Origin: Spirodela intermedia
Lineage: Eukaryota; Streptophyta; Magnoliopsida; Alismatales; Araceae
Direction of reading: 5' to 3'
DNA: 64,000 bases
Assembly: GCA_902729315.2 (NCBI GenBank)
Contig: LR746272.1
Coordinates: 6,325,827 to 6,389,826, forward strand
How positions within the stretch are numbered: the stretch's first letter is position 1; every line of letters starts with the position of its first letter. Made by a program: the position numbers and the translations under genes. This document shows, one piece after another, positions 9,901 through 63,222 of this stretch. The notes below the pieces were generated by a model that searched no databases, had not been told where the DNA came from, and was given only the letters and a program-made list of their open reading frames with translations.

Positions 9901-10589
9901 CTTGAGAAAAAATGAGAATTTATGATGTCAAATCAAATCAAATATATTGATGGCCCATGGAGTCATCATCTTGAAAAGTTGGAGGTCAAATGTTCTATAA
10001 TGATCAGATCAATATAAAACAAATGTGCTAACTTTTCGTCTTATTTTACAGGGATTGCATTGGTGCTGAGCTCTTTCTCCTCAGCGACCAAACCAGAAAC
10101 TCAAATGAACTCTGCATCTTGGTGGGAAATCAGTTGTGTCTACATCTGTGTATCCAGATGAGAAATATTTCACCTGTGTACCGTGGTAGGATTTACAAGA
10201 TATATTGCATCCTTACTATCGAGTCACCTAAACCTGTTCCCGAAGGGAAAAAGAGTAGTAAAGTCCTGACAGGGTTTCAACAGTGGAAAACTGAGGAAAC
10301 TATGAATATCTACGAACTGCTAATGTTGCATATGAGGAATGAAGCAGAGAAGAGACAAAATATGCGAGCAGTTCCTACGGATGACGTCGACTTGGTGACC
10401 GCGTATGTTTGCGTTGAGCCCAATACTCTGGGACAGGGTTTCTCTACATGCTTGCTTGATGTCTCAGATTTTCCCGAGGGTGTATATCAGATCAGATGGC
10501 ACAGCTGCTGCGTTGATAAGAGTGATCACCTGTGGAGCTTGCCTTCTTTTAATAATGGGATTCCTTTCACCGTCAGATGTCCTGTTTAG
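3981..10589 (+). CDS. INTS7: Integrator complex subunit 7 homologue (ARM/HEAT-repeat protein), complete
   Basis: Seven coding exons: 3981-4056, 4556-4998, 5116-5301, 6801-6908, 7526-7729, 7809-9829, 10052-10589. All junctions keep frame, giving 1191 residues (the Arabidopsis homologue EMB1895, At4g20060, is about 1130 as I recall). The start MERIPAACAMNWSIELEKG, the early block PGEERSFANTILTRL, the helical repeats RAYKSGKNLVQG to QVDFLLTFMVEGC, and the C-terminal block GDCIGAELFLLSDQ to IRWHSCCVD are recognisable plant INTS7 segments. The protein is a helical-repeat scaffold; in animals it belongs to Integrator, and the plant protein is reported to act in snRNA 3'-end processing. Exon 6 alone encodes over 670 residues. 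A possible extra exon at 5466-5639 was rejected because it stops in frame and breaks the match between exons 3 and 4. The gene is divergent from the Mg2+ transporter and upstream of VPS26C on the same strand. Confidence 0.87.
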
Positions 10590-11625
10590 TCACATTGCTA
10601 CATCTTTCTGGCCGTGAACAGAGAGTACCTGGAGCTCGTGCACTAAACGCCAATCCAGCATTGGAAAAGGGGCTCCTATCTGGGAATGCTGCAGGTGTGT
10701 GGTCTCTCATCCATCATTTCTCTTCTCCAGTGCATGAAAACAAAACCCAGATACGTACTGGGAACAAAAGGGATTCAATTGCCCATCTTATTGGCTTCAT
10801 TTCACAGAGAGCTTTCTCTCTTGATTTGGATGCTCCTGAGCTGGATCTCTGGTGTGCTACCATGCACCCTGATGAAAGGAGCCATGGGTCAAGAGCTTCA
10901 AGTTGTCATCACCAACATGCATCACGGGCGGCCCATAACAAGAAACCTTCAGTTTTCTGGTGGGGGCCTTTTATGCAGAGAATAGAGCACACTGCGCACA
11001 ATATAAGAAGGCCCGGGATGGTTTCTAGAATCCGTCTCATGGCCATCGGCGCTGAATTATTCTGCTTTGGGAAACCTGGTTCTGTGCAATGGATTTTTTT
11101 TTTTTTTTTTTTCATCTTCTGATCCATTTTTCCTTCTTTCTTTTTTTTCCTTATATCGAGGAAATCATCCAGTTGACTCCCGTGCGTATCTGGCTGCTGC
11201 GGGTGAGGGACCGTGTGTGGGTCCCACTCAAAAGCCCAGACCCTATGATCAATGGATTCACACCTTTCTTGCTCCTTGAAGTGATGTCCTCGGTCAACTA
11301 TCCAAGAACTACCCCACCCCCCTTGAAGTCAATCTTATTAAACCGAGAGGAGGAGGAGGAAGAGGGGGTGGGCCAAAAAGGGGTCAGATAAAGTAGTAAG
11401 AAAAAGGGTCTTTTTTTTTTCTTCTAGGAAATCGTATCCGGCTATGGATCGGTGGCAGATGGTAGTCCCGTTGGGCTTATGAGGAAATCTAGTGGGCCCA
11501 GGCCCATGTATGAGAGAGATCCACCTCGAACTGCAGGAGCTCCCAACGTCGTCGGCTGGGAGAGAGCGAGAGGGAGAGCGAGAGGGAGAACGAGAGAGAG
11601 AGAGAGAGAGAGAGAGAGCGCTGCC
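10590..11625. other. Intergenic DNA between INTS7-like and VPS26C: 3' UTR, then promoter/leader
   Basis: The first part is probably the INTS7 3' UTR. It contains a 181-codon open frame (10577-11122) that overlaps the INTS7 stop in another phase and resembles nothing I know. A T-run at 11093-11112 and a (GA)n leader tract before 11626 are the only marked features. I see no other gene. Confidence 0.55.
11592..11618 (+). repeat. (GA)n microsatellite directly in front of the VPS26C start codon
   Basis: About 13 GA dinucleotides, preceded by the GA-rich imperfect run from 11565, end 8 bp before the ATG at 11626, so the tract is almost certainly in the 5' UTR. GA/CT tracts in plant leaders can be bound by BPC (BASIC PENTACYSTEINE) factors; that role is inferred here. 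Confidence 0.9.
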
Positions 11626-19296: not shown

Positions 19297-22200
19297 TTAC
19301 CCACTGGCGTGGGGTGTGGTGGCCCTGCTGGACCACTGGTGCATTACCGTGTCCGGCGAAGGAGGCTCATCCACTTTCTTCAGCAAGCGCATCTCGTCGA
19401 TGGTCGTCTTCGTAGGCTCCTCCATCTCCCCCGTCCTCTCCTCCTTCGCATGGTCGTCCCCGCTCTCCACCCTCCGGAGCACCTCCACGACCTCGTCCAT
19501 GGCGGGCCTCATCTCCTTCTCCCTCTGCAAGCACCTGAACGCCAACTCCGCCACCACCGTGATCATCCTCTTCACTTCCCAGTCCGTCTCGAAGCCCAGC
19601 TTCGGGTCCACCAGCTCTGCCAGATCGCCGCTCTGGATCTTGCCGATGGCCATGCTGGAGAGGTTGATCTCGTGCCGGCGCCGGGTGATGTCCACGGCGG
19701 GCATGGAGGAGATGAGCTCCACGAGCACCACGCCGAAGCTGTAGACGTCGCTCTTGTCCGTGAGGTGGTAGCACTGGTGGTACTCGGGGTCAACGTACCC
19801 GGGCGTGCCCTGCGGGGCGGTGGAGACGTGGGTGGCGTCCACGGGGAAGAGACGAGAGAGCCCAAAGTCGGCGACTTTGACGTGGAAATTGCCGTCGAGG
19901 AGGATGTTGTTGGTCTTGACGTCGCGGTGGATGATCTGGGGCTCGACGGCGTGGAGGTAGGCGAGGGCGGTGGCCGTCTCGAGAGCGACGCGGAGGCGGA
20001 GGGGCCAGGTGAGTGCGCCGCGGGGGGCGAGATTGCCGTGGAGATGGTCGGCGACGGTGCCGTTGGGGACGAACTCGTAGACGAGGAGGAGCTCGCGGCT
20101 GTGCCGGGAGGTGCAGCCGTAGAGGCTGACCAGGTTGTGGTGGCGGAGGCGGTTGAGGATCTCCACCTCGTTCATGAACTGCTCCACGCGCTTGAAGTTG
20201 TTCTCGTATAGTCGCTTCACCGCGACGATGCGCCCGTCTCGGAGCTTCCCTGCACACGCACACACAACAACAACAAATACCATCTATATTAAAGAGCAAG
20301 AACGGGGGGATTTGGATGGTTGGTTGCTGCGAGTTGCTACGAGAAGAAGAAGAAGAAGACGACGATGATGATGATAATGATGACGAAGAAGAAGAAGGAG
20401 AACGGGAGGAGGAGGAGGAGGAGGAGGAGGAGGAGGGGAACCTTTGTAGACGGTGCCGAACCCGCCATCGCCCAGCTCGCTGGAGGGGTTGAATCCGTTG
20501 GTGGCCTCGTGCAGCTCCTCGTATCTGAAGTACTGCGTGCCGCACTGCAAGCTGCCACTCTCCGGGTTTTTCTTCAAGGACGGCTCTAAGGAGCCCGACC
20601 GGAAGAGCAGATCCGAAGAGTGGGATCGCCACTTCCTGTTCTTCCGTCTGAAGAAAAGAAAGCAAATGAAGCCAGCCAGGAGTGCGCCCCCAAATCCTGC
20701 CGACACGCCTGCGCGAAGAAGATGCAGAACTGAGCAACAAGATTGAAGGCGGCGAGGTTTTAGAAAATATTGTTCCTCGGAGGGAAAGAAAAGAAAGCCA
20801 TATATTGCGACGAAAAGCGACCGCTTTTCATGCAGAGAGAGCGTACCTATGATAATCTTCCTGATCTTACTAGGCTTCTGAGCTGCATAGAAAAAGCCAC
20901 GCCAGTCAGGCTCTATCTCCATAGTCAATAGTTATCAAGTAGCCAAAACACTAGCCGATAATAGCGGAGAAATATAGGCATGCTTCAGACGTTGACCCAC
21001 AACCAGAACTCTCTCCATTTTCAGTCTGAACAAACTGGTGGCATTAAACATCGGTCAATGATAATTTAGTGGCACACCGTACTTTCATCACCTTCTGTCC
21101 CTAAGAAGCAGCTCATATACTTTCTAGCAAGCCAAATGTCTGCCCATCTTACTCTGTAATATTCCCCTACCATGCATGGAGAGGAATATGATCCTACTGC
21201 TGCAAAACCCTAGACTGTTTTATTCTGTACCGCCTGGAGAGCTGAAACAATGGGGCGAGAAGTAGCATGCACGCTTCTTCACAGGTGGATAGTTTCCGAA
21301 GAATCCTATCACGCATACGGTGCGTGCGGTCTGAAAAAGCTTCACGTCTCTTGTTCTGTGCTAGGATGAGTGGAGAGAGGAAGAGAAAACGTCCAGGTTT
21401 TCTTCTCACCGACTAGTCTTCATAACCTAGAAGAACCGATTGATCCGCGGATTATAGATCGAACGAAAGCATGGAAGAGGCAAATCTAGAAGAACACCAA
21501 ACCTGGTCATAATCAGAGGGATTTGGAATCTGTATGGGCAGAGAGATTCCAAACATGCGGAGACCAGCGAGCTACAGTTTGAAAATTTTTAACATAGAAC
21601 AGATAGGAAAGTAAAAACATGAGTACCAGACCTTTGCAGCTGACAGCATGGGACCTGTCGCTGCAGAGACATGAGAACCTGCTCTGCTTGGCATCATACC
21701 GACATCTTCCGCCACTCTCCAGGCACTCGCTGCAGTTTACGGCTCGCCATCGCAGGAGAAAACCAGGTTTCAGGATATCCAGGGCATCATTATACTTCTC
21801 TAGGCCGTCATCCCCCAGGCCAACTATAGGGAAGCTAATGACAGATTTACAGGCCGATGCGTTCACTTGATCCCTACCGACGAACGACAGGCCCTTGCTT
21901 CCATTACGGCAATTGATGGGGACGTAACCAGGAGGCTGCGAATTCGGCTCACAGTCGAGGAGGAAGAAGAGGCTGCTCTGGGCCGGGACGATGGAGAAGG
22001 GAGTGGCGGTAATCGAGAGATTATCGCGGGGCACATAGCAGGTTGAGCTTGAGAGGCCAACGTTGGAGACGAGGAACGACTGGTTGCGGTAGAAGATGTT
22101 CCGAACGTGGTAATCATCTTCGAAGATGCGGACGACTGGGAAATCTGCCCGGCAGGTGAGCTTGAAAGAAGGAAAACCGCAGTGGGAATGTTGGAAGCCG

Positions 22201-22412
22201 TCCAGCCAGAAAGGGTAACTCACGTTGACCCCATTCCCGCAGTGCCTCGGCAAGCAGTCGTCCGGCGGCAGGTCAGCGGCCCAGGCCAGAGAGGAGAGGA
22301 GGAAAGAGGAGAGGGCGAGCCTCAGGGAGAGCTCTGTTAGTTTTGACCATGCGGTCAGAGTGGGCATCTTCATCTGCAGAGGAGAATCAGTGGGCAGGCT
22401 CGATGAATCCAT
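19297..22412 (-). CDS. LRK10L-type (GUB_WAK) receptor-like kinase: ectodomain exon A plus the only kinase module of the locus
   Basis: Exons in transcription order: 22412-21632, 20882-20847, 20708-20442, 20249-19297; phases close, giving 678 residues. Exon 1 has a signal peptide (LALSSFLLSSLAWA), a GUB_WAK_bind domain opening with CLPRHCGNGVNVSYPFW, and a WAK_assoc domain with CSECLESGGRC. Exon 2 encodes the basic stretch AQKPSKIRKIII. Exon 3 holds the membrane helix (residues about 274-293), the RRK stop-transfer and the P-loop GDGGFGTVYKG. Exon 4 holds VAVK (Lys about 373), HRDVKTNN (Asp about 471), DFG (about 489-491), TPGYVDPEY and YSFGVVLVEL. The catalytic set is complete, so this is an active RD-type kinase of the leaf-rust-10-like family, which acts at the plasma membrane and binds wall-type ligands by inference. 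The kinase exon is very GC-rich. Three further ectodomain exons lie upstream on the same strand (see the following entries). Confidence 0.9.
20250..20441 (-). repeat. 192-bp intron built mostly of trinucleotide repeats (kinase intron between P-loop and catalytic Lys)
   Basis: On the coding strand the intron runs from gttcccctcc through (CTC)n, (TTC)n, (ATC)n-like and (CTT)n blocks to an acceptor gtgtgcag. On the plus strand these appear as (GGA)n at 20404-20436 and (GAA/GAC/GAT)n at 20340-20398. Retention would read in frame through proline/leucine/histidine runs to a stop near 20290. Confidence 0.85.
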
Positions 22413-23186
22413 TCCAGGGGAAGAAGAGAAGGGGAGAGGAAGGTAATGGGCGGAGGGAGGACACGGGGGACTTCTTCCTCAGATTTCTGTGGCTGATGCT
22501 GCTCGTGGTTGAAGGCGTGACGTTAACAGGTGGGACTCCGACCATGAAACCCGGCGGCTAGTTCCAAAGTCAAACCTTGCTTGCAGTAGGGCTTGAAACG
22601 CTACCGTCCGATCACCAGTAGCGAAAGTACCCCCTTTGCACGGACAAAATCGAATCTGAGGTGACCTTGCCCTAGATTTTTATGAAGCAAGCAGACTGGT
22701 GGGCACGGCGAAGTCAACGCTTGATCTGGTCACGCTTGGCAGGTGCTGACCCGCCTCCTTTTGAATCCTTGGCCATCTTTCTTCTCAGAAGAAGAAGAGT
22801 GAGTGATCGAAAGAGAGAGGTTGTGGTGTGGATAGAGGCTTCCGAACATGTCTGATCCAACATGGACTGCTAGCTAACACGGGCTGATAGAGAGAGAGAG
22901 AGGAGACATAAGGCCCCCCGGGGCATCCAAATGATTGACGGAATACCTAAAACTCGAGGACAGAAGGGGAAGCAGAAGCCCACCAGATTCAACGCCGGAG
23001 TCAGCCAGAAGCTCGCACAAGGTGGACTTTCCGCCGATGGGCAAGCACCCGAGAGGCCTAAACGACGTCCACTAAAAGAGAGGGAGGAAGCGAAACGGCT
23101 CGAAGAGCAGGAGGAGGAGGAGGCGGAGGAGGAAGACGACGACGACGACGACGGTGGTGGAGATAGAAGTCTCAGAGGGGGCGTAC
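22413..23186 (-). promoter_or_regulatory. DNA upstream of ectodomain exon A, with two W-box cores
   Basis: Minus-strand TTGACT (plus-strand agtcaa) occurs at 22568-22573 and 22712-22717, about 160 and 300 bp upstream of the exon A start. WRKY factors bind TTGAC[CT], and induction by defence cues is common for this kinase family; use of these sites here is inferred. The part nearest exon B (22870-23186) carries on in frame past exon B's donor as triplet-rich low-complexity sequence (about 23110-23160), which I read as intron. No kinase sequence is present. Confidence 0.4.
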
Positions 23187-23952
23187 CTTTATCTTTAGTC
23201 TCTGTGCATCTGCCCAAGGATGAGGATTCCTTACAGTAGCAGAACTGCGCATCGGGCTGGGAGGAATTGTACCCGCAGACTCCCCCAGAGTCGACGCAGT
23301 CCCTGCACCAGCTCTCCCCCGCCTTCCACCTCACGTCGAACCACAAAAAAGGGTCCAAGTTCGGCACTTCAACGGGCCCCCTTCGTACTGGTACGCTGCC
23401 CATCGAGTTGCACGACGGATCCTTGGCAGGACTCTCCGCCAGAGGGTCATCTAGCACGAGGTAGAACTCGCTCTCCGCGAAGGGAAGGCAAGCGAACATT
23501 TGCTGCTGGAGACGTTCTGTTATCGAACAGTTGTAGAGCGTAACGTTGAGATTGCTGGAAGCGTACTCGAAAAGAGAGCCCAGGTCCAGGGAGACGAGCT
23601 CAAGTAAGGGGCAACTATCTTTCGGCACCACGCTGAGGACGTTGGTTTCGTAGTTGATCTCGCTGACGAGGTAGTTCTTCCCGCTGATCTCGACTACCAG
23701 AGCGTCATCTACACATCTCACCCTGTACTTTTCCCCGAAGCCGCAGTATTCCGGCCGCCCCGCCGCCGTGAAGGGGTAGCTGATGTTGAATTTCCACACG
23801 CCGCAGAGCAGACGGAGAGGATGCCGGCAATCGGCGTACTCTCGCAGGTCGCTCAGCGCCGGGGGAATTCCGGCGAAGAGAGAGAAGAGGAGGAGGAGGA
23901 GAAGCATGGCACAGAGTTCCGAAGGGAAGCCCCAAGGGGTCTCCTCGAGCAC
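23187..23952 (-). CDS. Ectodomain exon B of the LRK10L locus (no kinase of its own)
   Basis: Open from ATG 23952 (alternative ATG 23907, which begins directly with the signal peptide MLLLLLLFSLFAG) to a phase-1 donor GATAAAG|gtacgc at 23187/23186: 255 codons plus one base. It encodes a GUB_WAK_bind domain (CRHPLRLLCG, ISYPF, CGFGEKYRVRC), N-glycosylation sites (NVTLYNCS) and a WAK_assoc domain (CRDCVDSGGVCGYN ending FCYC). Joining to the shared exon at 20882 is in frame and would give a 673-residue receptor kinase. Alternatives: a secreted receptor-like protein formed by reading past the donor, or a duplicated receptor that lost its kinase. No frame damage is visible. Confidence 0.8.
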
Positions 23953-24498
23953 AGTAGAGGGAGAAATAGGCGGCGAATTGAGGAGGGGAAGGTGGCGGAG
24001 GAGAAGAGGGCTCGGTCGCTGCCTTCTCCAATGGGTTGTGGGAGGGACACGACGTCAAAGCCGCCGGCAAACTGCGGGTTTGGTGAAAAGAATTCAACGC
24101 CCACCAGGAGGAAAGGGGAGACTAAAGATCCAACGGCCTTCCCTCTCCTTCAAAACGCTCACAGAGATGGCGGGATACCCACTGCCTCTAAAGATCCAAG
24201 AACTTGCAGGTATTATCTCTCGGACTGACAGCGCCCGACAACCAAATTTAATGACCAGGTCAACATACTACCTCCGAGGTACCAATCGTAATCCTGCAAA
24301 TCCTGGAAAACCTGGGTGCTCTCTGTGGTGCCTAGCTTCTTCCTAAGCTCGTCGGAGGAACCTTCTCCGAGCCATCTCCGGCAATTCTTTATGAATAATC
24401 AAACCGAAATCCCCTCAGTTTAAAAGCCCCACAGTGACGCGCACCCTTGAAAATCCTACCTTTAGATGCAGAGGTAGAGAGAGAGAGAAGTCAAGATA

Positions 24499-24501
<3 letters not shown>

Positions 24502-24532
<31 letters not shown>
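24502..24532. repeat. (TC)n microsatellite, about 15 repeats
   Basis: Uninterrupted tc run, preceded at 24473-24488 by a short GA run, so the pair could fold as an imperfect hairpin. It lies about 550 bp upstream of exon B. Confidence 0.95.
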
Positions 24533-24533
<1 letters not shown>

Positions 24534-24875
24534 AAGAAGTGGGTTAGTGGTCGACAGCGACGGCATGAGAGAAACGGTCCGTCTTACCTCGTCTGATCGT
24601 GTTGCTTTTGCCGTCACTGTTGCGACCAAGACGAAGGATCGACCCAATCCTTGATTAGGATGGAGAGGTTGTTGGCCTTGCTGATAATGGGCGAACCACT
24701 GCGATAGCAGAGGCGCCTCCAAGCAACCCACCCGGCTTCAAAGACGTTACCTTTCCTCCAGCCGATTTCCGCCTCCCCCCTGTCTCGTCTGCCACCATCA
24801 TGTCTCGTGTACCCTAATCCTCCCCCTCAATGGTGGCGCGCGAACCATCTGAATTTTGGTGTCTTTCTCTGCGTG

Positions 24876-24895
24876 CCCCCCCCCCCCCCCCCCCC
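24876..24895. repeat. Homopolymer of 20 C
   Basis: Twenty consecutive C just past the exon C donor (in the presumed intron). On the minus strand this is a G20 run, which could form a G-quadruplex in nascent RNA. The length may be unreliable in sequencing. Confidence 0.9.
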
Positions 24896-24961
24896 AGGGA
24901 GATAACCCGGGCAATCCGAATCTATGGATCCGTGAAAACGAGATGAGATCTGGAAGCATAC

Positions 24962-25943
24962 CTGATGCAGATGTACAAGTTCCACCCTCTCTGTTGCAGA
25001 GGCAGGCGAACGCGAAAGCTGTGATAGTCCTGTTGCGAACGTACCCGCATGTCCAATTTTTCCCTTGGCACTCGCGGCACTTGGCCGCCTCCGATAAGTT
25101 CAGTGCCAGAGGAAAACCGGTTTGCACTATCCTCGTAAAATCTGTGGTCAGATTCCAACGTTGTTCGTCTGGTTTCTTCACCGGCGACACCACACTTGCA
25201 TTGCAAACACCCCAAACACCCCAAATTGCGTTCCACGGAGTTTCGGATATGTTCCACTGGAGGCCGTAGGAATTGTCGCCAAGGCAGGTGAGGGGATAAA
25301 GAGTTTCGTACCAGGGGAAGATGGGTTTCTCGGAGCAGTTGAAGAAGAAGAAGATGTAACTGACGTCTCGAGCAACCAGCGGGATGTTGGGACTCAAGGT
25401 CAGATTATGCCTAGCCCGGGGGCAGTCATCACCCAGCAGGTCCAAGTCCTTGAGGGTGATGGTGCCCTCCTCGTAATCAACGGCGGCGACCTGGTAGATG
25501 TCTCCACCCAGGTGGAGCAACGGTTTGTTGTCCTGGCAGCGGATCCCCAAATCGGGATGCCCACAGATGGTCTCATTTGTGGAGGCGTTGGATATGGCGG
25601 TGCTGTCGTTGTACCATAGAGGGTACTTGATCTCCACGCCGTCGCCGCAGTCATGGGGGAGGCAGCTCCCGCTGCCGACGTCTGCTCCGGAAGACGATTG
25701 GGAGAGGAGGAAGAAGAAGATGGGGAAGGCCCAGGAGGAGGAAGAGGAGCGCGGAGGATGAAGACGGGCACCGGACATTGTTGCTTCTCCAGCTTGCTGG
25801 GCCGCGGCCAAACAGTTTAGGGATGGGGAGGAGGAAGAAGAGGAGGCCGCGAGAAAGGGAAGGAAGGTGAGGGAGTCTTCTTCTCGGTCGGTCCCATGGT
25901 TTCTGTTCTCCTTCGGCGGCGGGGCAGCTAAGAGAAGATCCAC
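24962..25943 (-). CDS. Ectodomain exon C of the LRK10L locus (no kinase of its own)
   Basis: Open from ATG 25943 to a phase-1 donor GCATCAG|gtatgc at 24962/24961: 327 codons plus one base. The ATG at 25778 (MSGARLHPP, then the hydrophobic segment WAFPIFFFLL) is the more likely start because it places the signal peptide at the N-terminus. The GUB_WAK_bind domain opens CLPHDCGDGVEIKYPLWY; the middle has several N-x-S/T sites; the WAK_assoc domain is CRECQGKNWTCGYV ending FACLC. Splicing to 20882 is in frame and gives 690 residues from the inner ATG. Downstream DNA up to exon B lacks transmembrane or kinase coding sequence. Confidence 0.8.
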
Positions 25944-26577
25944 CCCACCCAGAGAGGCTCGCGTGGTCTTTCACGCCATGCGTTGACGAAACCGCCAGGG
26001 CAGGATTCCTGTGGGCGGAAAAGTATTCGGCAAATGGGTACTACGTGGAGGCCAGCAGAGCGTGGTGCCACCTTCTAGATTTTCTCTTCCGCTGACGACT
26101 GATGGCGTTGACCAGCAGGTCAACGGTGAGCTGCCATGCCGGAGGGGACTAAACAGTTCATGGGCCGGCCCAAAGATTCGATTTTGATCGGACACTGGCC
26201 AGGAGGAGGAGCCCCGACGGACAAAACGGACACAGTCCTAGGCAAATCTCCTCCCGATGGGCCACACGCACAGCCCGTATGGACCTTTCCAAATCTGTGG
26301 CCCTTATGGACCAGAAACCTAGCATACGACCGAGCGGCCCAACGAATGAAGACCTCGCTGCCCGAAAAGCATGCCTATTTATGGGGCTACGAACCCATAA
26401 GAATCTAAGCATTCAGCCTTATTCTAGTGCTTGATTATATCTAGCTCGAACAGCTACTGCTGTACTTCCTATGAAAAATAAAAATCAGACCTTTCTTGGG
26501 CACTGTGGGTGCCCATAAAATCTTAAAACCTATGTAAATCCGTGGAGCGAGAAGAGATGGTGTGAGAGTTAGCGTAC
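25944..26577 (-). promoter_or_regulatory. DNA between ectodomain exons C and D, with a palindromic W-box pair
   Basis: At 26107-26124 two W-box cores face each other (TTGACC and GGTCAA) with a 4-bp spacer, about 330 bp upstream of the preferred exon C start. The region is otherwise unremarkable and has no kinase sequence. Confidence 0.45.
26107..26124. promoter_or_regulatory. Perfect inverted repeat of two W-box cores
   Basis: The sequence gttgaccagcaggtcaac is a perfect 7-bp inverted repeat around agca. Each arm contains TTGACC, the WRKY-binding W-box. Function is inferred from the known binding preference of WRKY factors. Confidence 0.5.
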
Positions 26578-27328
26578 CTTTCTTGGATCCGCAAGCCGGG
26601 TTCTTTCCCTCGCCGGTGGAGCAGCTACAATGATACTGCTGGGCTGTCCGGTTGTACAGGCATTTCTCATTTTCCTTCTCGCAGTGGCTGCAGTTCTTGT
26701 CGAGATCGGGGGCTGATCTCCACACGACCTGGAGACCCTCCTCCACGCAAAAGTTCATGTAGTCTGACACCGACGGAGCTACGCTGTGGTGTCTGGTGTC
26801 TCCTTTCAGACCCGGCATCTCCTCGCCGATGCCGCTGTTGCCGTCTTGACATGGTTTCATGGATTCGAACCTCTCCTCGCCTCTCTCAAGGCAGGAGATG
26901 TTACAAAGAGCGGAGACGGAGAAACACTCGACCTGAAACTTAGGGAAATCGTTGGCCTCAGTGGATCTTGAGCTCTGGCCGCCGTGATCACTTTGGCGGA
27001 GGGCCTTGAGGGTGATGATGGTGGCCTTTTCGTAGCTGACGTTGGCGACCATGTACTTGTGTCTTCCCAGTTGGAGGACTGGGTACCCGTCCGTGTGTTC
27101 GACATGTAAACAATAATACCCACAGACAATGTCCTCCACTGAATTTTCTTGGATCCACAGAGGGTACCTGATTTGTAAGCCGTCTCCGAAGTCGTAGATT
27201 TTGCACTGCTGGATCTCGGTGTGTCTCACAGAAAGACCTCGAGAAGGGAGGGGTAGAGAGTGGGCTAGGAGGAAGAGGAGGTAGAAGACGTAGCAGCCGC
27301 AAGGCGGACTTGGAGGACGACCTGTCAT
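26578..27328 (-). CDS. Ectodomain exon D of the LRK10L locus (no kinase of its own)
   Basis: Open from ATG 27328 to a phase-1 donor AAGAAAG|gtacgc at 26578/26577: 250 codons plus one base. Signal peptide YVFYLLFLLAHSLPLP, then a degenerate GUB_WAK_bind start, CKIYDFGDGLQIRYPLW, in which the usual second Cys (xCG) is Phe. The C-terminal WAK_assoc domain is intact (CSHCEKENEKCLYNRT, ending YHCSC). It is the most 5' of four ectodomain exons. Joining to the shared exon at 20882 is in frame and gives 668 residues. It could instead be a lone receptor-like protein; no stop or frameshift interrupts it. Confidence 0.78.
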
Positions 27329-30300
27329 GGCTGCTCCGCGTGGGTTGCCGCGGAAGGGAGGGCGAGCGGATCAGGAAGGAAGAGATGGGGTTTCTACGTA
27401 GGCTTTGTAGTCCAGTTCCCTCTTGAGGAGTGAGGTAAGTCGTCGGAGAGAGATCTTCCGCGTAGCGACGGCCGACGACCGACGACCGACGGCCGACGAC
27501 TCCTGGAAGCACTCGCGGCGTGTCTCTATCTAAGATGGACGTGTTCTACACTGCCGTCCTTCGACGGAGGCCATTGAAACCTTGGGCTCGCAGAGCAAAT
27601 TTATGACCATAGACTTGGTGCTCATCGTCTTCTTTCGGCTTCATCGATTTCACCACAGTCGTATGGGAGAGATTCTCTGGCCTCGCCAAAATGGTGAGTG
27701 AGGATCACGGGATCAAAAGGATTCAAATCATCGTTTACCTCGTAGCATCGTCGTGCGACATGCTGGACCTTCAGAACCAGTGACGTCACAGAAAGGCCAC
27801 CACGCCGTGTGCTCATCTTCTTGTTGGTTAAACGAGACACAGATGATGCAAGCGCCGCGAATGTAGAGACCAAGCTCGACTTTATCGGTCCAACACCCTG
27901 CAATTAATTTCGTCTGCAATTAACCAGGGAAGGAGGTCTTTCCTCTCCCTTATCCCCGGAGAAGAAGGTGGCCATTGCAGACTCTCAGACCTGCTTCAGA
28001 GCCCCTCGCTTCGTCAAACGGGCAGTCCCCATTGCGTCTAATCCAGGAGGACTAGCCTTAAGAAATGCGGCGCGCCCTCCTCATCTCTTGCACTACTTGC
28101 CCTCTACATCAAGAGATGTCCTCCGCAGCCTGGTGAAACCCAACAAGTCCACCCACCCTTGAAAAAGTAGCGTCTCAGTCCCAATCGATAGGTCTGGCGT
28201 GGCGTGCAGCAAGTCGCCAGACTTGCTTCGTCCGTCGCCATGATTCCGTCCGCGTATGTTGGACACATAAGAGGAAGTCTCCGCGTCGCTTTAACTCGGT
28301 GAAACTTCCAAGAATATGACCAAGAGGTTTCCTCTGGGCAGTCCGAGAGTGAGGCCACCGAGTCCACCATGCTATCCGAAAAAGACGACGTATGAGAGGG
28401 GGAGACAGGGAGTCCTCTAACGCTCGGCATTGAATCTTCTCTTTGGAAACCAGTTTTAATTGACTGAGTCTTGTCATGGTGACTGATAACATGATAAATG
28501 CGCCCACAATTCTATGCATTTGATATGAGTTTAACCATCTACATTCTGAATTTATCATGATATCAATTAAATTATGTGAATATTTCTGAACTTTATTTGA
28601 ATATCATTTCATGTATATTATGTATGTTTTTGATTTACTATGCTTGACTTCTATGAAGTCGAGTAATTTTATTATTAATAAATATTCTCAGGTTCCATGT
28701 GTACAGAAATTTACAAGAACTAAATGGAATAACTACCAGTGACCTGGAGCTCTCCATGGGATCTTAAAACTTATTCGTTGGGTCAGAATGGATCAGTTCT
28801 GGTTTTGGGCTTCAAAGGATCAGTTAGAGGGATGTGGGCCACGTTTTGTCGTCATCCACTAACCCTTGTAATTTTCCTCTTAAAGAGGAGCACGAAATTC
28901 AGGTCATGGGAGCTCTCAACCAATCAGGAAAAAAAAAAAGAGGAAGAAATGGCATGGAGAAAAGTCGATAAATGATAGGAGGGCATTTTAGTGATTATAC
29001 CCCCTGTATAAATAAATACTCTCTTCCTCTCTCTTTCCCGCCTTATTCTGGAGGTGTTCTAGCAGTGGCTAGCTAGCAGGACAAGGCATCTTCCAGGATC
29101 CGGGGTATCCACCCTGATAGATGTAAGTCGTTTTGAAGCGTGCACTCTTGTTCTTCCCCTTCTTGCAGTGAAAAACGCCTGATCCTGGCGGAATATAAGG
29201 ATCAGAGAGGAGGAAAAAATCCTGAGGGCTCAAAGGACGAACATCAGCACCAATCTTCTCTCTATACCTCTGAACCCTCCAGCTTTTTCCGCCGTTTCCC
29301 ATTGCTCTGTCTTCCGTTCCGCCCCCTCCAACCGCTCCACGTTTCCCTCTGTTTTCGCCCATCGTTCCTTCTCTCTTCGTCTTCTCCCGCAGCCTCCTCT
29401 CTCCGCCTTCTCCCGCAGCCTCCTTCTCTCTCCGCCTTCTCCCGCAGCCTCCTTCTCTCTCTGCCTTCTCCCGCAGCCTCCTTCTCTCTCCGCCCTCTCC
29501 CGCAGCCTCCGTCTCTTTCCGCCATCTCCCCTCGCTCCATCTGCCGCCACCTACCGCCAGCCGCGATGCGCTCGCTCCCGTCGCTCCTGCAGCCTCCGTC
29601 TCTTGGCAAGTAGACTTAAGCTAATAAAAATCATACCACTATAAATCTTAATGTACTACACATGTTAATACTTTGTGTTGACGAGCTAGTTTGTGTTAAT
29701 TCAAAAATGTTCGTGTCAACCCAATCAAATGATGTGGACCCACTAAAAAAATATCATCACTCAAGAAAAATATACTAAAGAATTACTTAAGAAATTCAAA
29801 ATGGATTGATTGAAGTCCAAAAGCATACCCGTAGGATTAAACTAATAAATTTAATGTATTGTAGAGGTATGATTTGTGCTACATTATATTTAAATGTTTG
29901 ATGACACAATAAATTTTGTACTATTTGTATGTGTTTGATTTCAAGGCTACCATAAGGAAACCACATATAAGTGTTATAAAATGCATGTAAGTCATTACAA
30001 GTACCTTGGTGAACTCCCTCGCAGCAGGTTCTTGGTGAGTTCCGCAGGTGACGTTGAAGGGTGCTCGACGTTGACTGAGCAACGGTCGAGGCCAGTCTCG
30101 GGCGAGAAAAAGGCCAGAAACCTAGAGCCACCGGTGCCTAGCACCAAAGAGGGGGCTACACTCCATTAAATCGGGCCTCTAAAGGAGATGAAGAGAGATA
30201 TTTTAGCAAAGAGGTGAATTTGGGTCTTTCTAGGGTTTTGTTAGGGTTTACTATAAGACAGATATTGGGGCATATTGAGCTGTTTTGAACCCAATACTAT

Positions 30301-33246
30301 TAATGGGCTGGATGTTGGGCGAGTGAGTTTGGGTCATCGAGGTGTTGATTCAAGCATCAGTGCTTGACAGAGACGGCGGCATCCACAAGTGAGGATGGTG
30401 GTAGCACAGGTGGCAGCCGTTCTTCAGGAGAATCGGGTGAAGATGCGAAGGAGTGATGATTTTGATTGTTGGGATGTGCAGTCTGAAGGTAGTAGGGATG
30501 GTGAGTGAGAACTAAACGGGTATGTATATTCATTTGATCTGATTGAATCTTTTGTCGCCAGAACTGCATTTGTGTAGTTTGGAACGTAGGGTACTTTGAT
30601 GTCTTCTAGTTGAGATTTGGATCATCATCAAAAGAAATGAAAACACGTAGCATTGTGTTAGGATTTTGGAGTCTTATGCATGGTACTAGAGTACATATAA
30701 TGGAACAGTTTGTCTCCTTGTAGCGCTTTAGCTCACTGGCTATTCAATGGAGAGGAAGGGTGAACAACGAGGTAAAAATGATATTGGTATTTCAATCCAA
30801 GGTTAAGTGATGCTCAATTGTTTTTTGAGGCTTTGATGAAGACTCGAGAATGATTTTTAGCTAGTGGAATCAATTTTTGATAGGATTTTAAGAGTGGATT
30901 AGGGTTTAACAGAGGTATGAGAGAAGGGATTGTTAGCATTTTTTATAGGAATAATGTTTAAATGGCTTTCATAGAGGTGAAATTTGAAGTGGGTTGTTTA
31001 CTATAAAATTGAAATTTGATTTTGACAGTCACTTAGTGCCGATCAGTGATCTGTATGTATGAATGAGGGCAATATGTGTCAAACATTGTTGTGGCTTATG
31101 TGCCTGCCTTTTGTGAGTTGATATAATCTTAGGCTTACTTGAGAATGGGTTGACTCATCTTGTAGTGAGTGAGTTGGCTAACTCATTTAGTTCATATTTT
31201 TTGTTCACACGCTTCGTTTTTGAATGAATGATATAATTTTTAGCTAAATTTATCACATTAGCATTGTCAATGAATTTTGTAAATACTATAACTCCATAAT
31301 CCTATCAACTTAATTAAAATAATTTAGGCACAATAGTTACCAATTAAGACATTAAACTTAAGTTTAGGATATAGAAACTAAATTTTGCTGCTTAGAAAAG
31401 AAAGAGATCAGTGATCCTTTTTACGAATAATCATGATCCAATTGTGATTTTTCTACCAGTTCAATGTCTAGTGAAGTGTGAATTTAATTATCCAATCAAA
31501 TTCAAGTTGTAATATTTGTGATACCATATTTCAAGTTGCATGACCTCAAGAAGTACGTACATAAGAGGGAGAAGATCCCAACGGGATCGCTCTTCTCGTA
31601 TTACCGGCTTCCAGCTCTCTATCAGTCTACAGCCGACTTGTCTCCTGTTGCCGTCGCACCACAGCCTCCTCAGCTCCCTATGAGCACTGCCCTTCTCACT
31701 CCGGAGCTTCCCCTCTCCTGCATATGAGACCCTCTCCGCAGTCTCCGTCTTCTTCTTCAGTTCTCTTGTCTTGCGGAGGGCGAAATTCTCCCCTTTTATA
31801 GAGGGAGAGGCCTGGAGAACCTTCTCCGTTTAGATCTTCCTCCTTTCGACACCTTCCTATGCAGACGCTTTCCTCTGTCTGCCCTGGATCTCTCCATGTG
31901 TTCGTGAGGTTCTGGGAGTGTCACAGTGCTCCTGAGGCTGTTGAGGACAGAACGGGCCTTCAGCCGGTGCCTGAATGGTATCCTTCGCCCCGAACGAGTC
32001 ATTGACGGTATTACGAAAGGATTGAGAAGAAGAATACGCGACAAAACGAGCGAGAGAGAGAGAGAGAGAGAGAGACGCACTGAATGCCGTTCAGTCGGCG
32101 GCGCGAAGGAGACCTCATGTGAAGTGAGGGCTTCCCTGCCACGGGGTCAAGATCGAACTCGCCTCTGCTCTTACCCCCGGGCGGGCTTGGTCACCCCCGA
32201 TGGCACGAAGCAGTCTCCACATTTGCGGAGTCCTTTTCTTCACCAATAGACACGCATTATCTCTCTCTCTCTCTCATAAAATAACCGCAGGAGGAGGAAA
32301 AGGGCGCCACGCCCGCGTTTCTCCGTTCCATACGGGAGACCGTGCTTCGAGGGCTTTGAGCTCCAACCATCGCGCAGACTACCACACCCCCCGTCATTCC
32401 CGTCTTTGACCGGCCGTCGAAAAGGCTTAGCCGTCTTGTTCTGCATGTCTTCAATCTAGTCTGATCGAGTTATTACGGGTCAGCGTACCCCTGCCCGAGC
32501 CTACGCCATCCCTTGGAGATTACTGCGTCTTCCATCTTATGATTATCTTGGTTTTATCTTAGGGTTATTGACGAGCTTTCATCTCCGTCTCTAAGCTAGC
32601 CCGATATACTGCTTCCTAGGTCCCTATAATTAAGTCTAACACATTTTACTATATCAAGGGCGCTCATAAATGTAAATCTTCCATTGATCTACTTCACATT
32701 TGAGTGTGGAACAGCGGTGATCGTTATTTCTTTTGACTATGATTTTAACCATTTTCAATGGCGTTCGTCAAGAGATTTGGTTGATGCTTTATATAAGATG
32801 TATGTTGACTTTTCAGGCTGTAACGCAGGAGCGTAGTCGTGCGAGTCAACGGGATCGCTCGAGTCAGACCCACTTTAGGATACATTCATTGATATATTCT
32901 GACCACGCCACTGAAATTGCCCACTTTTCATTTTTCTGACTCCACCTACTATCCGGAGGCGTTGTCGAATCATCCACTGCTTCCTCCAATCTCAAGGAGA
33001 TGGTCCGTAGAATGTTAAGCCGTCTACGTTGACTTTTCCGATCTAGAGGAGGTACGTCGGTGGTCATGTATTTATTATTCTTCCTTGGTGTGCCTCGAGG
33101 CGGCTGACCGGGCAGGCCGCCCGGACTCAATGCATGTTACTTGAAAAGGGTTGGGGGCTGGATGCAAGTCAACGCTGCCTAATGTACAGTAGAATAAAGA
33201 AAGAAAGAGAGAGAAAGAACCTTCCGTCCTGGCCAGAGCCGACTGG
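27329..33246. other. Gene-poor 5.9-kb intergenic region
   Basis: I find no gene I can name. The first 1.2 kb is the presumed upstream region of exon D and holds unplaced open frames (for example 27622-27903 minus). A TATA-like tataaataaata at 29007-29018 precedes a C/T-rich stretch and a 29-bp tandem array (29381-29520). The stretch 29620-31520 is AT-rich; 31560-32500 is GC-rich with a (GA)n tract at about 32047-32073. Part may be old transposon DNA, but I recognise no terminal repeats or pol motifs. Confidence 0.45.
29381..29520. repeat. 29-bp C/T-rich tandem repeat, about 4.5 copies
   Basis: The word tctcccgcagcctcc recurs with copy starts at 29381, 29407, 29436, 29465 and 29494 (spacings 26, 29, 29, 29). 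Units are near-identical, with small changes (cgcc/tgcc). The array opens serine/proline-rich frames on the plus strand and arginine/glutamate/glycine-rich frames on the minus strand, which I regard as by-products. Confidence 0.9.
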
Positions 33247-34534
33247 TCAGCCGGAGAAGGTTACCCATTCCCCTCGTCTGTTTTCCTTCAGCTCCCGAAG
33301 AATGTTCTCCAGCGCCGTCTTCGCCTGCGATGGCAGTTGGCAGCCCACCATGAGTCTCCTCAGCTCCCCTTCATCTGTGTCCTTTCCGTCGTCGGCCAAT
33401 ATCCTACACCAGAAGCAAACACGGAATTCCCATCTTAGAACAGATAAATCTCCTTCTTAGAACAGATAAATCTCCTTCTTCTTCTTCATCATCATCATCA
33501 TCATCATCAGCCATTCATCTCTAAAATGGTGGCGATGCTCACCCGTTGAGCTTGCAGGCGAGGTGGGACTCGGCGAGCTGCTTTGTGCTCCGCAGGCCGA
33601 GGGACTCGCAGAGGGGTAAATAATTCTTCTGCAAGTAGTATTTCTGGTGGTGGCTCTCGGCGAGGTAGAATTCCGAGGAGCCGCAAAGAAGGATCTTCGT
33701 AACGATCCTCCTGTTGAGCTTCAACTGCCACCGGACCTTCGACTCCTGCGCCCACTTCCTCTCCTCCTCGCTCCGGTAGAATATAGCCGACCGGAAGTGC
33801 GTACCCGCGCCAAATCTCTGCAACGCGAATTAGGGTTTAGACCTGCTAAAAGACGCTGGTGGTTTGCCCAACTCAAACCAGGTGAAGCTGTTTAGGAGAT
33901 CATACGAGATAATCCTTGTTGGTGGAATCATGGCTTTCCCAGAAGACTCTGCAGAGGAGACCGTACGAGACCCTCCGCTTGTCGTAGACCACCTTCACAG
34001 CCTCCGTGTGCCCCGTGTGCCCCTCTGAGATCTAATATCCCCACACAAAAGATGAGTGAAATGATCTCCGGAATTTCTCAAGGAACGCGGGGAGAAGAAC
34101 GTTCCCACCTCTCTGTAATTAGGGTTCTTCAGAGACCCTCCGTAGTATCCGACTGCCGTCCTTACGACCCCGTCTAGGCGGCCGTACGCCGCCTCCAGTC
34201 CCCAGAAGCTGTCTGCGCGTCAAATACGATCCGATCAGATGATGGATGCAAGGAGGAAGGGACGAGGGGAAGGACGAAGTCGCTGGCTACCTGCTGCAAA
34301 AATGGCTTCTCCGAGGAACTCCAACGGCGGAGAAGCGACAGAATCGGCGCCGCCGCCTGATGAAGGCCATTTGGCCGCCAAGAGGCGACAATTATCGTCG
34401 GAATCCTCTACTCTGAGCTTGGGCAAAAGCTTATACATCGGGGCGCCTCTCCTTCTCCGTGAGCTTTTGCAGACTTCCGCAAGGGTAAGGAAACTTGAGA
34501 GTTGGAATCGAAACTGGCCCTTCTTACGAATCAC
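33247..34534 (-). CDS. Peptide methionine sulfoxide reductase A-like protein lacking the catalytic cysteine (MSRA5-like), complete
   Basis: Exons in transcription order: 34534-34291 (or from ATG 34438), 34212-34109, 34031-33906, 33817-33543, 33403-33247. Phases close, giving 301 residues, or 269 from the inner ATG; MSRA5-type proteins are about 250. The core is a full MsrA fold: [63 protein letters not shown] and [10 protein letters not shown]. The MsrA active site is normally GCFWG; here it reads DSFWG, across an exon junction (G|AC AGC TTC TGG), so Cys is Ser. Arabidopsis MSRA5 also carries Ser there as I recall, so this is likely its orthologue group. Methionine sulfoxide reduction is therefore doubtful unless another Cys substitutes. 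A C-terminal extension ([19 protein letters not shown]) follows the fold. No clear signal peptide. Confidence 0.85.
33486..33509. repeat. (TCA)n microsatellite in an MsrA-like intron
   Basis: Eight tca triplets within the short intron 33404-33542, next to a (CTT)n stretch. Non-coding. Confidence 0.9.
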
Positions 34535-36344
34535 GTCCGTCGTATTGTATGTCTTCCCACGCGAGTTTTCAACGGGGCGATCGCCGTCCCCGCCGCCGCA
34601 ATCAGAGAATGGCCATCCCCCTCGCGCCCCCAGAGATTACGTCTGTCCGACCTTTGACCTCTCCCACGCTTGCATGTGAATATGTACTCATCTTCCGGCG
34701 ATTGCGGAGGAGAGAAAGAGAGGGAGAGATTCACACGGCATGAAAGTCAACGGATGTCGGCATCGTGCTTCTTTCAGCAAGAAGGATTGGATCCGAGAGA
34801 GACGTCTGCAGTCATTTACTGGGGGGCCCGTTCCTGCATCTGTCAGCTTTATCAATTGGCCTCTCACGTCGACGACCAAAAGAATATCTATAAATAATAT
34901 CGCCGATGACAGCTCTTCCTTTTACTGGAATAAAAATGCTGGTCCACGCTAAAAATTGAATGCCGATTGAGATACGTATTTATTTTCTAACTTTAAATCT
35001 TCACAAATTATTCAATTGGTGTGATTACAACATCTTGGTCATGTACACTCTATCTAATCCCCTCATCCTCTTTTTTTATTTTTTCAACATTTAAAAAAAT
35101 CCTTAAATTATCCAGTACCCATGTGGTGGTATTTTAAATACCATCGTCAACACTATATAAGCTACTATAATCTTAATATGATCCCCTCCTAGAAGGTGTT
35201 TGATAGGCAGAAATGATGGGCCGTCAGGTTGTACTAGAGTGGTTGCATTTCGTTCTTTTGGGCAGTGAAATGGTGCGGCTTTTAATTTTTTAATTGCTTA
35301 TCATTCTGTTAGTAAGTTTCACGATAATAGGACTATAAGAACTATTATATCTCGAAAGGGAAAAAAGAGAGGCATATTCATCATTCCAAGATTTTTTCTT
35401 GAATTAATACTAAAAATAAATAGAAAAAGGGATGGGATGGGGGGGGAGGGGGTAAGAATAACTAGTAGTAAACAAGAAAGCCCTATGAGGATGTAGTCAG
35501 TACTCCCTTGTTCAATATTTTACAAAGTTAAGGCCAAAGTTCCATGTTGGCCTTCTACTTTAAAACCCATATATTTGTTAGATTATTCATCTCTGCATTC
35601 GATCATGGTCATAGAAAGGAGGGGTTGGGGTGAGTGTGATGGCATCCGTTTGCTCTAAACCTTATGCATAGATAAGAATGATGTGGGACTTATGATATCA
35701 AAAATAGGATGAATGAGCATACTGGGTCCTAGATTATGAAGTGAAGATGTTGTGAGTTCAATTCAATTTAAAGGGCATGGTCCAATTTGGAAGTTTGACC
35801 ACATGTGCCCATTTCATATGCTTTGAAACTCATGCACTAATATGGCATCGTGAAATGGTGAACATGACTTGATGGAGCAGGATTTGTTGATGGTGGCAAC
35901 AAGTATTTCAAAGTTTGTTTTTAAAATGCAATTGAAACCATGAAAATTACCTCTAATTATTAGACTTGTTTGGCCTACCATGTGCAATTTTTACTATTTT
36001 TGTCTATTGATGGTATGATGGAATCAATAAAATATGGGGATTGAAATTTTTTGCGCAACAAATTAAGGAATAATCCGGAGAGATAGTTTGTATTCACAAT
36101 TTTTGCAAAGTTTGTGAGGAAAAAGAGGGAGATTTCATGAGAGGTAGATGTGAGTACAAATCAGTTCAACACTTTTATCTTGTTGACTTGTGCACTAAAT
36201 TTGAGGACTATATTTTATTGATAGATCTTATAAAACTACCCACCCAAATGGTGATTTTGATATTTAACAAAGGATACTAATAAATTGTTGGAGAGATAGA
36301 GGAAAAGAGGGAGAGAAGGAGAGAGAGAGAGAGGGAGAGAAGAG

Positions 36345-36393
<49 letters not shown>

Positions 36394-37042
36394 TTCATTA
36401 ATAGTTAGATGGGCGATTATTATTTTCCAAACGTATGAGAGCGGGCTCCCACCAGCAAGACGTCTACCGGCCCGCTCGCCGCCGTCTCCAGTGCGAAATG
36501 CCGTACAGCAGATTTAGACAGCGTGGAAGGAAGAGGGTAGGCCCACTACCCAGGACACTAAAAATAGATCACACGCTGCGCATGCGTGTCAGAGAGATGC
36601 GGACACATACGCCACTAAACATAGAATGTTTTGTTGACACGGTGCGACTTTTTCTTGTAAGCATGTGCCCACTTTTTGATACGCTAATGAACTCTGCTCA
36701 TGTTAACCAGCCGGCCTTCTCCGAAATGGTCCCAGCAAAACGAAGCAAACGCTAGCAGGACGCCCTGTCATCGCGTCTCCCGTTCTCCGCCGGGGAAGAA
36801 CGACCACCGACTTCCTGCTCCAAGCTACGTCACGCGACCGAATTGGAGAGGAGGAGGAGGAAGAGGAGGTGGAGGATCGACTCCGACAGTTTAGATGCCC
36901 TAATTTGCGGAGTGGCATTCTCATTCTCTCCGTATTCGGCTTCCTCCGCCGTGTTCTCGCGAGGGCTGCGACTTACGCTGCTCCAGTGAAATGAGGGTCC
37001 TATTGTGAGGTTTGAAGGTGCACCGATTGGGATAGCGGAACG
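34535..37042. other. Divergent intergenic DNA between MsrA-like and MAP3K epsilon genes
   Basis: About 2.5 kb. The stretch 34900-36290 is AT-rich with no recognisable gene or transposon; 36296-36389 is a (GA)n tract; 36430-37042 is GC-richer and presumably holds the MAP3K epsilon promoter and leader. Small frames here carry no recognisable motif. Confidence 0.55.
36296..36389. repeat. (GA)n microsatellite upstream of MAP3K epsilon
   Basis: Imperfect GA/GGA run turning into an uninterrupted (GA)n block from about 36350 to 36389. It lies about 650 bp upstream of the start codon and is a possible BPC-factor target by inference. Confidence 0.9.
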
Positions 37043-60023: not shown

Positions 60024-60801
60024 GGCCTACACCTCCTCCTCGCTGCCCTCCCCTGCCTTCCCCTCCCCTGTAAATCTCTTTCTTGAGGTACTTGTACATA
60101 TGGGGCTTATATGCCTTCTAACTCTGTCCTCATCGTCACCAAGCGAGCGAGGCCGCCTCTGCCTGCTGCCCACTTTCCTCCCAAGGGGGAAAGGAAGATC
60201 CTTCTTCTTTGATTGACACACTTATTGAGTATTATTGAAGCGTCTATTGATTAAGTTCTGCTTGTGAGCTGAAAATCTTTGACCAGAAGCTACAGCGAGA
60301 AGTTCTGCTCCTTGTGAGCACGCTACCGCTCAATCGTCTGCCCACCCAACCCCGGCCAATCCGTGCTGCTCTTGCTGAGGTGTGTGCATGAGAGAGACCA
60401 GCAAAAGAGTGCACTGAGGGGCAATCAATTGGAGTGATAGTGTGAAACTCCTGCCCGGGCCTTTGGGCAGCAATCAAGTGATGCTGTACTGTAGGTCTCT
60501 GCAGAGCTGGAGCCAGAGCAACCCGCCCCCATTGACCTTGTGCTGAGCTCCGTTCTTCTCTCTAGAGTCCAGAGTCCAGAGCCCTCTGCAGGTTTCATGA
60601 GATCAAGGTTGTGTGAATGCACAATCTTCCTCTTGATAGCATGAAATATAGGGTGTACCAAGCTCACCAGTTTCACCTTCAGTTCACAGATGGATTGCTG
60701 CCTCTGGTAGTAGAAGAATTTGAGAGACTGAAGAGTGAGAGACGAAATGGGTCAGTTAGTCAAAGATCTGGGGGTGGGCTAGCTCTGGCCAAAGCTGAAA
60801 T
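60024..60801. other. Convergent intergenic DNA: 3' UTRs of MAP3K epsilon and the CRS1-like gene
   Basis: The two genes end tail to tail 778 bp apart. aataaa-like signals are weak. Short open frames on both strands look like by-products. No additional gene recognised. Confidence 0.6.
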
Positions 60802-63073: not shown

Positions 63074-63222
63074 CTGCATTGTGATCTTGAACGTCAAATA
63101 TTTGAAAACGTATAACAATAATATAGTCATGGGGCACAGGAAAATAAGCCAAATAAAGATGTGTCGTACTAAGTTGTATTTTTCATTTTTCCCTTTATTG
63201 AATATTTTATTTATTACTAAAG

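Follow-up and report, generated by a model that had tools for sequence, protein, structure and literature searches.

In vertebrates, the clustered protocadherin and UGT1A loci carry tandem variable first exons that are spliced to shared constant exons. Plants usually gain new receptors by duplication of whole receptor kinase genes. Two products of Arabidopsis At1g18390, AtLRK10L1.1 and AtLRK10L1.2, differ in their ectodomains. Alternative start sites for this gene have already been published; a conserved multi-ectodomain array was not found in the literature searched.

Here we describe a locus in Spirodela intermedia, within a window of 64,000 nucleotides (the whole stretch of DNA analysed), in which four ectodomain exons, D, C, B and A, lie on the minus strand upstream of a single constant module encoding a transmembrane (TM) segment and a kinase. 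We interpret this locus with considerable confidence as a variable-first-exon array, in which one receptor kinase would be supplied with several ectodomains. As in the protocadherin and UGT1A loci, each first exon is a complete N-terminal part and the constant exons are common. In contrast, the vertebrate proteins are unrelated to the Spirodela receptor, whose constant part is a TM segment and a kinase, and there is no sign of stochastic or single-cell choice at the Spirodela locus. At1g18390 belongs to the same receptor family, judged by the database names of nearest relatives, but has two ectodomains where Spirodela has four candidates; Spirodela A, B and C fall into classes common to palms and Tasmannia. 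The features of the locus, with slashes at the splice sites, are:

26578..27328, minus strand: candidate variable first exon D, 250 codons plus 1 nt; begins like a signal peptide and encodes a divergent ectodomain resembling GUB_WAK/WAK_assoc; donor AAAG/GTACGC
24962..25778, minus strand: candidate variable first exon C, 272 codons plus 1 nt; ectodomain of class II; donor TCAG/GTATGC
23187..23907, minus strand: candidate variable first exon B, 240 codons plus 1 nt; ectodomain of class III; donor AAAG/GTACGC
21632..22412, minus strand: candidate variable first exon A, 260 codons plus 1 nt counted from the first ATG; ectodomain of class I; donor AAAG/GTCTGG
20847..20882, minus strand: constant mini-exon of 36 nt, 5' of the TM exon, placed by frame and splice sites; shared acceptor CTATGCAG/CTCAG
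20442..20708, minus strand: constant TM exon, with the transmembrane segment (judged by eye), juxtamembrane segment and kinase start
19297..20249, minus strand: constant kinase exon, Pkinase 157.1 bits, with the RD kinase motifs VAVK, HRDVKTNN and DFG; contains the stop

Several complete first coding exons are thus in phase with one constant exon set. As an earlier note on this DNA had claimed, each ectodomain exon is free of internal stops and ends at a phase-1 donor (all four lengths are 1 mod 3), and the shared acceptor before 20882 fits the phase of all four; every one of the four joins to the constant module is open, giving products of 658-690 aa. The positions that it gave as donors, 26577, 24961 and 23186, are the first intron bases, the last exon bases being 26578 (D), 24962 (C) and 23187 (B). 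Its single constant module stands, with three exons in place of one TM and one kinase exon, the 36-nt mini-exon at 20882-20847 having been overlooked; a 2015 study related to At1g18390 reportedly fits this mini-exon. Exon A has a second in-frame ATG at 22373, directly after a CTCCTCTGCAG acceptor-like site, and its donor (GTCTGG) is the farthest of the four from the usual consensus.

By its domains and the database names of its nearest relatives, the locus is of the LRK10L1.2/At1g18390 receptor kinase type. The architecture of LRK10L1-type proteins, a GUB_WAK_bind and WAK_assoc ectodomain followed by a TM segment and an RD-type Ser/Thr kinase, is present at full length with A, in the ectodomains of B and C, and partly in D. 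Among the 120 listed of 7972 matches to the kinase module, many are named LRK10L 1.1/1.2, and identity to full-length monocot and magnoliid proteins is 62-75%. The earlier description of four intact ectodomain exons, each with a full C-terminal cysteine block, applies to A, B and C. Both Pfam domains score above their cut-offs in A (GUB_WAK_bind 56.9 bits, WAK_assoc 51 bits), C (45.2 and 36 bits) and B (39.7 and 33.1 bits), and conserved cysteine columns are kept in 14 of 14 cases in A and C and in 14 or 13 of 14 in B, depending on the alignment. It does not extend to D, where only WAK_assoc is matched, at 22.7 bits against a cut-off of 27, and 9 of 14 columns are kept (10 when aligned a second way). 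That open frames, most or all of the 14 cysteine columns and usable donors should persist together in exons this old is beyond chance; the age is judged from the absence of any shared ungapped DNA repeat of at least 80 nt between the ectodomain exons. The common phase carries no independent weight, since the homology of the exons already accounts for it.

A like arrangement is seen in the gene models of relatives. We examined 13 non-Spirodela isoform groups, chosen by hand from the 120 listed matches and known as database annotation models, not as reads. Eleven of them place at least two ectodomains, which share less than 50% identity, on a C-terminal part of 397-412 aa that is the same in each isoform, and in 10 of the 13 the alternative ectodomains fall into different classes; the remaining two groups, from Populus alba and Vitis rotundifolia, contain no alternative ectodomain. 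Isoform sets with a shared constant part come from Wolffia australiana, Phoenix, Elaeis, Tasmannia and Magnolia sinica (two loci each in the last four), Persea and Phalaenopsis, and the join between ectodomain and constant part lies at the position matching the boundary of Spirodela exons 1 and 2. Wolffia, a fellow duckweed, has one isoform of the A class and one of the C class. Counterparts of four oil palm ectodomains occur in date palm at 65-85% identity, and a fused coconut model runs from class II through class III and a palm-specific ectodomain to the kinase, the relative order of class II and class III being that of C and B in Spirodela. In contigs 2.1-2.4 kb long (source 'lgn'), two types of ectodomain with 34-35% identity run without interruption into kinases that are 98.5-99.0% identical to one another and close to Vitis. 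They look as spliced RNA would; since these kinases are not identical, it is possible that the contigs stem from paralogs or different accessions. Neither of the two S. intermedia models among the database matches contains the array.

Trees place A in class I, C in class II and B in class III, each of which also holds palm and Tasmannia isoforms; all of classes I to IV contain several plant families. Exon A clusters with Anthurium P0012 and Wolffia P0042, exon C adjoins Wolffia P0043 in a class with palm, orchid and Tasmannia isoforms, and exon B lies within a class III clade of palms, Iris, Musa, orchids, Magnolia and Tasmannia. Eudicots are present in class I, appear in class III only in the wide sense of the 70-row tree described below, and have no rows in class II among the sequences in the trees. 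The first tree had 71 rows, drawn from 66 of the 120 listed database proteins and the four exons; the 54 proteins left out were kinase-only, truncated, double-kinase or near-duplicate, some being simply unchosen. AU tests, made after the first tree had been seen, reject a clade of Spirodela A, B and C, a group defined by the locus itself, D excepted (p 0.0002), and a clade of B and C (p 0.0004). The AU-test tree had 65 rows and a later tree 70, six long or partial rows, D among them, having been dropped.

Within the Spirodela genome the arrangement stands alone among the pairings compared. Pairing all 27 GUB_WAK places with at least 62 kinase places gave 17 kinases with a GUB_WAK exon on the same strand no more than 10 kb away. 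Sixteen of them have a single such exon and this locus alone has several, so that no second multi-ectodomain locus appears among the matches listed. An earlier run had used 31 of 65 kinase-search places, and a rerun with all 65, minus three that are not kinases, gave the same counts. The one-to-one LRK10L/WAK-type loci share the ectodomain and kinase families of the array locus and have one ectodomain exon per kinase against its four. Eight of the 27 GUB_WAK places lack a kinase partner, three of them in a duplicate copy elsewhere on the contig.

These observations, chiefly the isoform models of relatives and the shared ectodomain classes, support the variable-first-exon reading of the earlier note. 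For exons A, B and C, use as alternative first exons is very likely. Each ectodomain exon would supply a start codon and a signal peptide of its own and end at its phase-1 donor. Transcription would begin 5' of one ectodomain exon, the donor of the chosen exon would be joined to the next usable acceptor, which precedes the mini-exon at 20882, and ectodomain exons lying farther downstream would leave with the intron. For Spirodela we infer both the use of B-D and separate promoters; no TATA motif is present within 600 bases upstream of any of the four starts. The predicted receptor would cross the membrane once and carry one cysteine-rich ectodomain out of several on a constant TM segment and RD kinase, and start-site choice would set the sensor while the output stayed constant.

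The locus is probably one signalling enzyme fitted with several different sensors. If so, a single kinase would read several apoplastic ligands; as for their nature, the Pfam name, and it only, suggests cell-wall pectin. Such an array would tie several inputs to one output without several kinases having to stay alike, and would explain the kinases without ectodomains and the fused ectodomains among the family's database models. The locus suggests a second, long-kept route to new receptors, in which the sensor exon diversifies and the kinase remains constant in cis. More broadly, we think it somewhat probable that angiosperms have kept three to four ectodomain classes and one kinase together in cis, with a promoter per class, since before the monocot/magnoliid/eudicot split. 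On that proposal this ancient locus would be a plant counterpart of the vertebrate variable-first-exon arrays, which standard annotation splits, fuses or misses.

The earlier note had also raised tandem duplication of whole receptors followed by kinase loss, which would leave A as the sole receptor and make B, C and D either secreted receptor-like proteins or decaying remnants. Other LRK10L-like loci here do have one ectodomain per kinase, several of them clustered, D is divergent, and the duplicate on the contig, D-C-B with a truncated A, lacks this kinase, indicating that ectodomain exons can be left kinase-less. We nevertheless regard this explanation as very improbable: relatives in several plant families join the same exon classes to one kinase, and in A, B and C phase-1 donors persist together with 13-14 of the 14 cysteine columns. 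The gaps are free of recognisable TM or kinase coding, as previously stated, tblastn with the kinase module (E up to 10) showing no relic at 20,884-37,229. Unspliced B-D would read 45-105 codons into their introns, tails in which no obvious membrane anchor was recognised by eye. For A-C, a recent origin of this kind fails, since the three exons belong to three cross-species classes and their joint clade is rejected. It is also unlikely that a single promoter upstream of D serves the locus, with a non-coding leader alternatively spliced onto internal acceptors. The CTCCTCTGCAG site before the second ATG of A would suit such a leader, but at B, C and D nothing comparable was seen immediately ahead of the start, and for At1g18390 the published description is of alternative start sites.

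Compatible with alternative use of A, B and C is a mixed locus in which D is relaxed or newly specialised and is joined rarely or never, a possibility that we entertain tentatively. The use of D is doubtful. It lacks 4 or 5 of the 14 cysteine columns, and Pfam recognises no GUB_WAK match in it. In its predicted structure, residues 41-110 form a block at pLDDT 83-93 and residues 201-240 lie at 72-87, the middle being mostly below 50. D differs from D', its copy in the duplicate, by 4 replacement and 2 silent changes and one in-frame insertion. No ortholog of D was found; its best relatives by phmmer, at low scores, are exon C and class II palm ectodomains, and D is probably class II-derived and fast evolving. 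Against relaxation, the frame of D is open, its GC3 of 0.67 is coding-like, it begins like a signal peptide and its donor is good. Moreover, the palm ectodomain P0015/P0024, comparable to D in its divergence, is kept at 65-67% identity between oil and date palm, so that divergence alone is not decay.

The anatomy of the receptor locus is established from a 136.5 Mb assembly of 32 contigs, in which the window spans C9:6325827-6389826; the locus is read from the minus strand in the following order:

27328-26578 (-), variable ectodomain exon D
25778-24962 (-), variable ectodomain exon C
23907-23187 (-), variable ectodomain exon B
22412-21632 (-), variable ectodomain exon A
20882-20847 (-), 36-nt mini-exon
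20708-20442 (-), transmembrane (TM) exon
20249-19297 (-), kinase exon

Each of the four ectodomain exons has a length of 1 mod 3, and all four joins to the constant part give an open frame (D 668, C 690, B 658 and A 678 residues). The four-exon order described in the earlier note is correct, although that description missed the mini-exon and placed three donor coordinates one base off. Its claim that the gaps lack kinase coding held, as no kinase trace was seen between the ectodomain exons. Against the kinase module, two Spirodela intermedia database proteins show identities of 100% and 84%, the lower value arising because the second gene model is mis-spliced. The array is absent from both S. 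intermedia database models of the locus that we found (P0001 and P0002): one begins within the intron upstream of the mini-exon and leaves the following intron unspliced, and the other uses exon A with incorrect splices. Neighbouring plant genes contribute long open frames at about 4500-10600 (+), 51800-59400 (+) and 60800-63300 (-); Pfam searches of four such frames returned nothing except weak armadillo-type matches, below cut-off, at 58866-59387.

The variable exons differ in quality. A, B and C carry GUB_WAK_bind and WAK_assoc above the curated Pfam cut-offs, and D has WAK_assoc alone, below cut-off. Across an alignment of 43 proteins, 14 ectodomain columns hold cysteine in more than 90% of the rows; all 14 are retained in A, B and C, and nine in D. 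When 13 proteins were aligned separately, the counts were 13 for B and ten for D. Third-position GC is coding-like in all four exons (0.67-0.73). Modelled D reaches fair to good confidence over residues 41-110 (83-93 in 10-residue blocks) and 201-240 (72-87), with its middle part mostly below 50.

Among the ectodomain-kinase pairs seen in the S. intermedia genome, the array is alone of its kind. We paired 27 GUB_WAK places with 62 kinase places from a capped list wherever the ectodomain shared the kinase's strand and lay at most 10 kb upstream of it. Seventeen of the listed kinases have at least one partner, and 16 of these have exactly one; the kinase of the array has three (A, B and C), with D escaping the GUB_WAK model. 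Eight of the 27 GUB_WAK places, three of them in a duplicate copy of the array, have no partner among the listed kinases, and since only 64 of 961 candidates were scored, their kinases may fall outside the list.

Isoform models from other plants strongly support the same arrangement there. From the best 120 of 7972 matches to the kinase module, isoform sets named as one gene were grouped by organism and contig into 13 groups. In 11 of these (two loci each in oil palm and date palm, two groups each in Tasmannia and Magnolia sinica, and one each in Persea, Phalaenopsis and Wolffia), two or more members carry N-terminal parts less than 50% identical on one and the same C-terminal stretch, 397 aa or longer. 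The identical part starts, as a rule, just before the TM segment, at the position of the Spirodela exon 1/mini-exon junction. One date palm locus offers five different ectodomains (23-36% identity); near-duplicates (84-86%) also occur, with one such pair in date palm and another in Tasmannia. Alternative ectodomains on a shared C-terminus were not seen in the Populus alba and Vitis rotundifolia groups. RefSeq-type isoforms are normally backed by RNA reads. Two ectodomain types, 34-35% identical, also occur on 2.1-2.4 kb contigs of the source 'lgn', each uninterrupted on a kinase near that of Vitis; as genomic contigs would be expected to hold introns, the lgn contigs resemble spliced RNA. With 98.5-99.0% identity, the two kinases are not quite the same and could represent two paralogs or two accessions.

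Conservation extends to the individual ectodomains, which fall into the same classes in two unrooted trees (71 rows, and 70 rows without the long ones). Class I holds A with Anthurium and the Wolffia isoform P0042, together with palms, Magnolia, Persea, Tasmannia and eudicots. Class II holds C beside the Wolffia isoform P0043, with palms, an orchid, Acorus, Tasmannia and Aristolochia, and no eudicot among the tree rows. Class III holds B with palms, Iris, Musa, orchids, Magnolia, Persea and Tasmannia, at a support of 98/84 (32 rows, 71-row tree) and 99 (33 rows, 70-row tree); eudicots such as Vitis join only in the wider 33-row clade, and B has a long branch of its own whose nearest neighbour is unsure. 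Class IV comprises proteins of Magnolia (P0079), Persea (P0109) and eudicots, and in Magnolia and Persea it shares a kinase with classes I and III. Constraining A, B and C to form a single clade cost 118 log-likelihood units (AU p 0.0002) in a quick 65-row tree, and constraining B and C alone cost 47 (AU p 0.0004).

At least two classes stand on one kinase in 10 of the 13 isoform groups. Spirodela, palms and Tasmannia each place classes I, II and III ahead of a single kinase, which repeated, independent kinase loss can hardly explain. The classes are probably old; the trees are unrooted, and the great age follows from plant phylogeny. Four matching ectodomain pairs link oil palm and date palm at 65-85% identity, with kinases at 91.8%. 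A fused coconut model runs class II, class III, a divergent palm type, kinase; as in Spirodela, where C precedes B, class II lies ahead of class III. The palm arrays contain one strongly divergent ectodomain (P0015 in oil palm and P0024 in date palm, 65-67% identical); among the Pfam domains listed, WAK_assoc is missing from both, and P0024 has neither ectodomain family. Fast-evolving exons may be a regular feature of such arrays.

We propose that transcription would start upstream of one ectodomain exon, whose donor would be spliced to the mini-exon, so that the sensor would be selected through start-site choice. Intervening ectodomain exons would be removed with the intron; of the four, A alone shows an acceptor-like site immediately ahead of an ATG. 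This sequence, CTCCTCTGCAG (22374-22390), lies immediately 5' of the second in-frame ATG of A (22373), so a 5'-untranslated leader exon may precede that ATG. A and at least one of B or C are very probably used as alternative first exons in Spirodela; for D the balance tips only slightly, and approximately, towards use. The promoters and ligands involved are likewise putative. Variable-first-exon arrays are a known kind of locus, and alternative start sites are already known for one gene of the LRK10L family. In the open-access literature searched we saw no description of arrays in which angiosperms conserve three to five ectodomain exons; as subscription papers mostly fall outside it, an earlier report may exist in print.

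The region 21756-32031, which takes in part of the array, recurs as an inverted copy 2.6 Mb away on the same contig (C9:8962384-8972634; regions L009 and L010). It carries D', C', B' and a truncated A', includes a 1.5-kb internal inversion, and contains no mini-exon, TM or kinase exon of the array gene. An assembly artefact is possible, but a genuine segmental duplication is favoured by the 62 substitutions over 8192 positions of the main alignment (0.76%) and by flanks that differ between the copies. C' is identical to C over all 817 nt, whereas their flanks differ. The copy sits within a different receptor kinase gene of the same strand (C9 about 8961600-8976100, L009-L011), between a 5' and a 3' malectin-domain exon; a tandem neighbour of that gene follows. 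Pfam matches cover the host 3' exon, two pieces of kinase and the neighbour's 5' exon. Next to the insert, the host 5' exon shares 97.4% identity with its counterpart in the neighbour but has two gap positions and is read in two frames, so this gene may be broken. We read its TM exon as apparently starting in phase 1, and chimeric ectodomain-kinase transcripts or receptors are therefore conceivable in principle, as a speculation.
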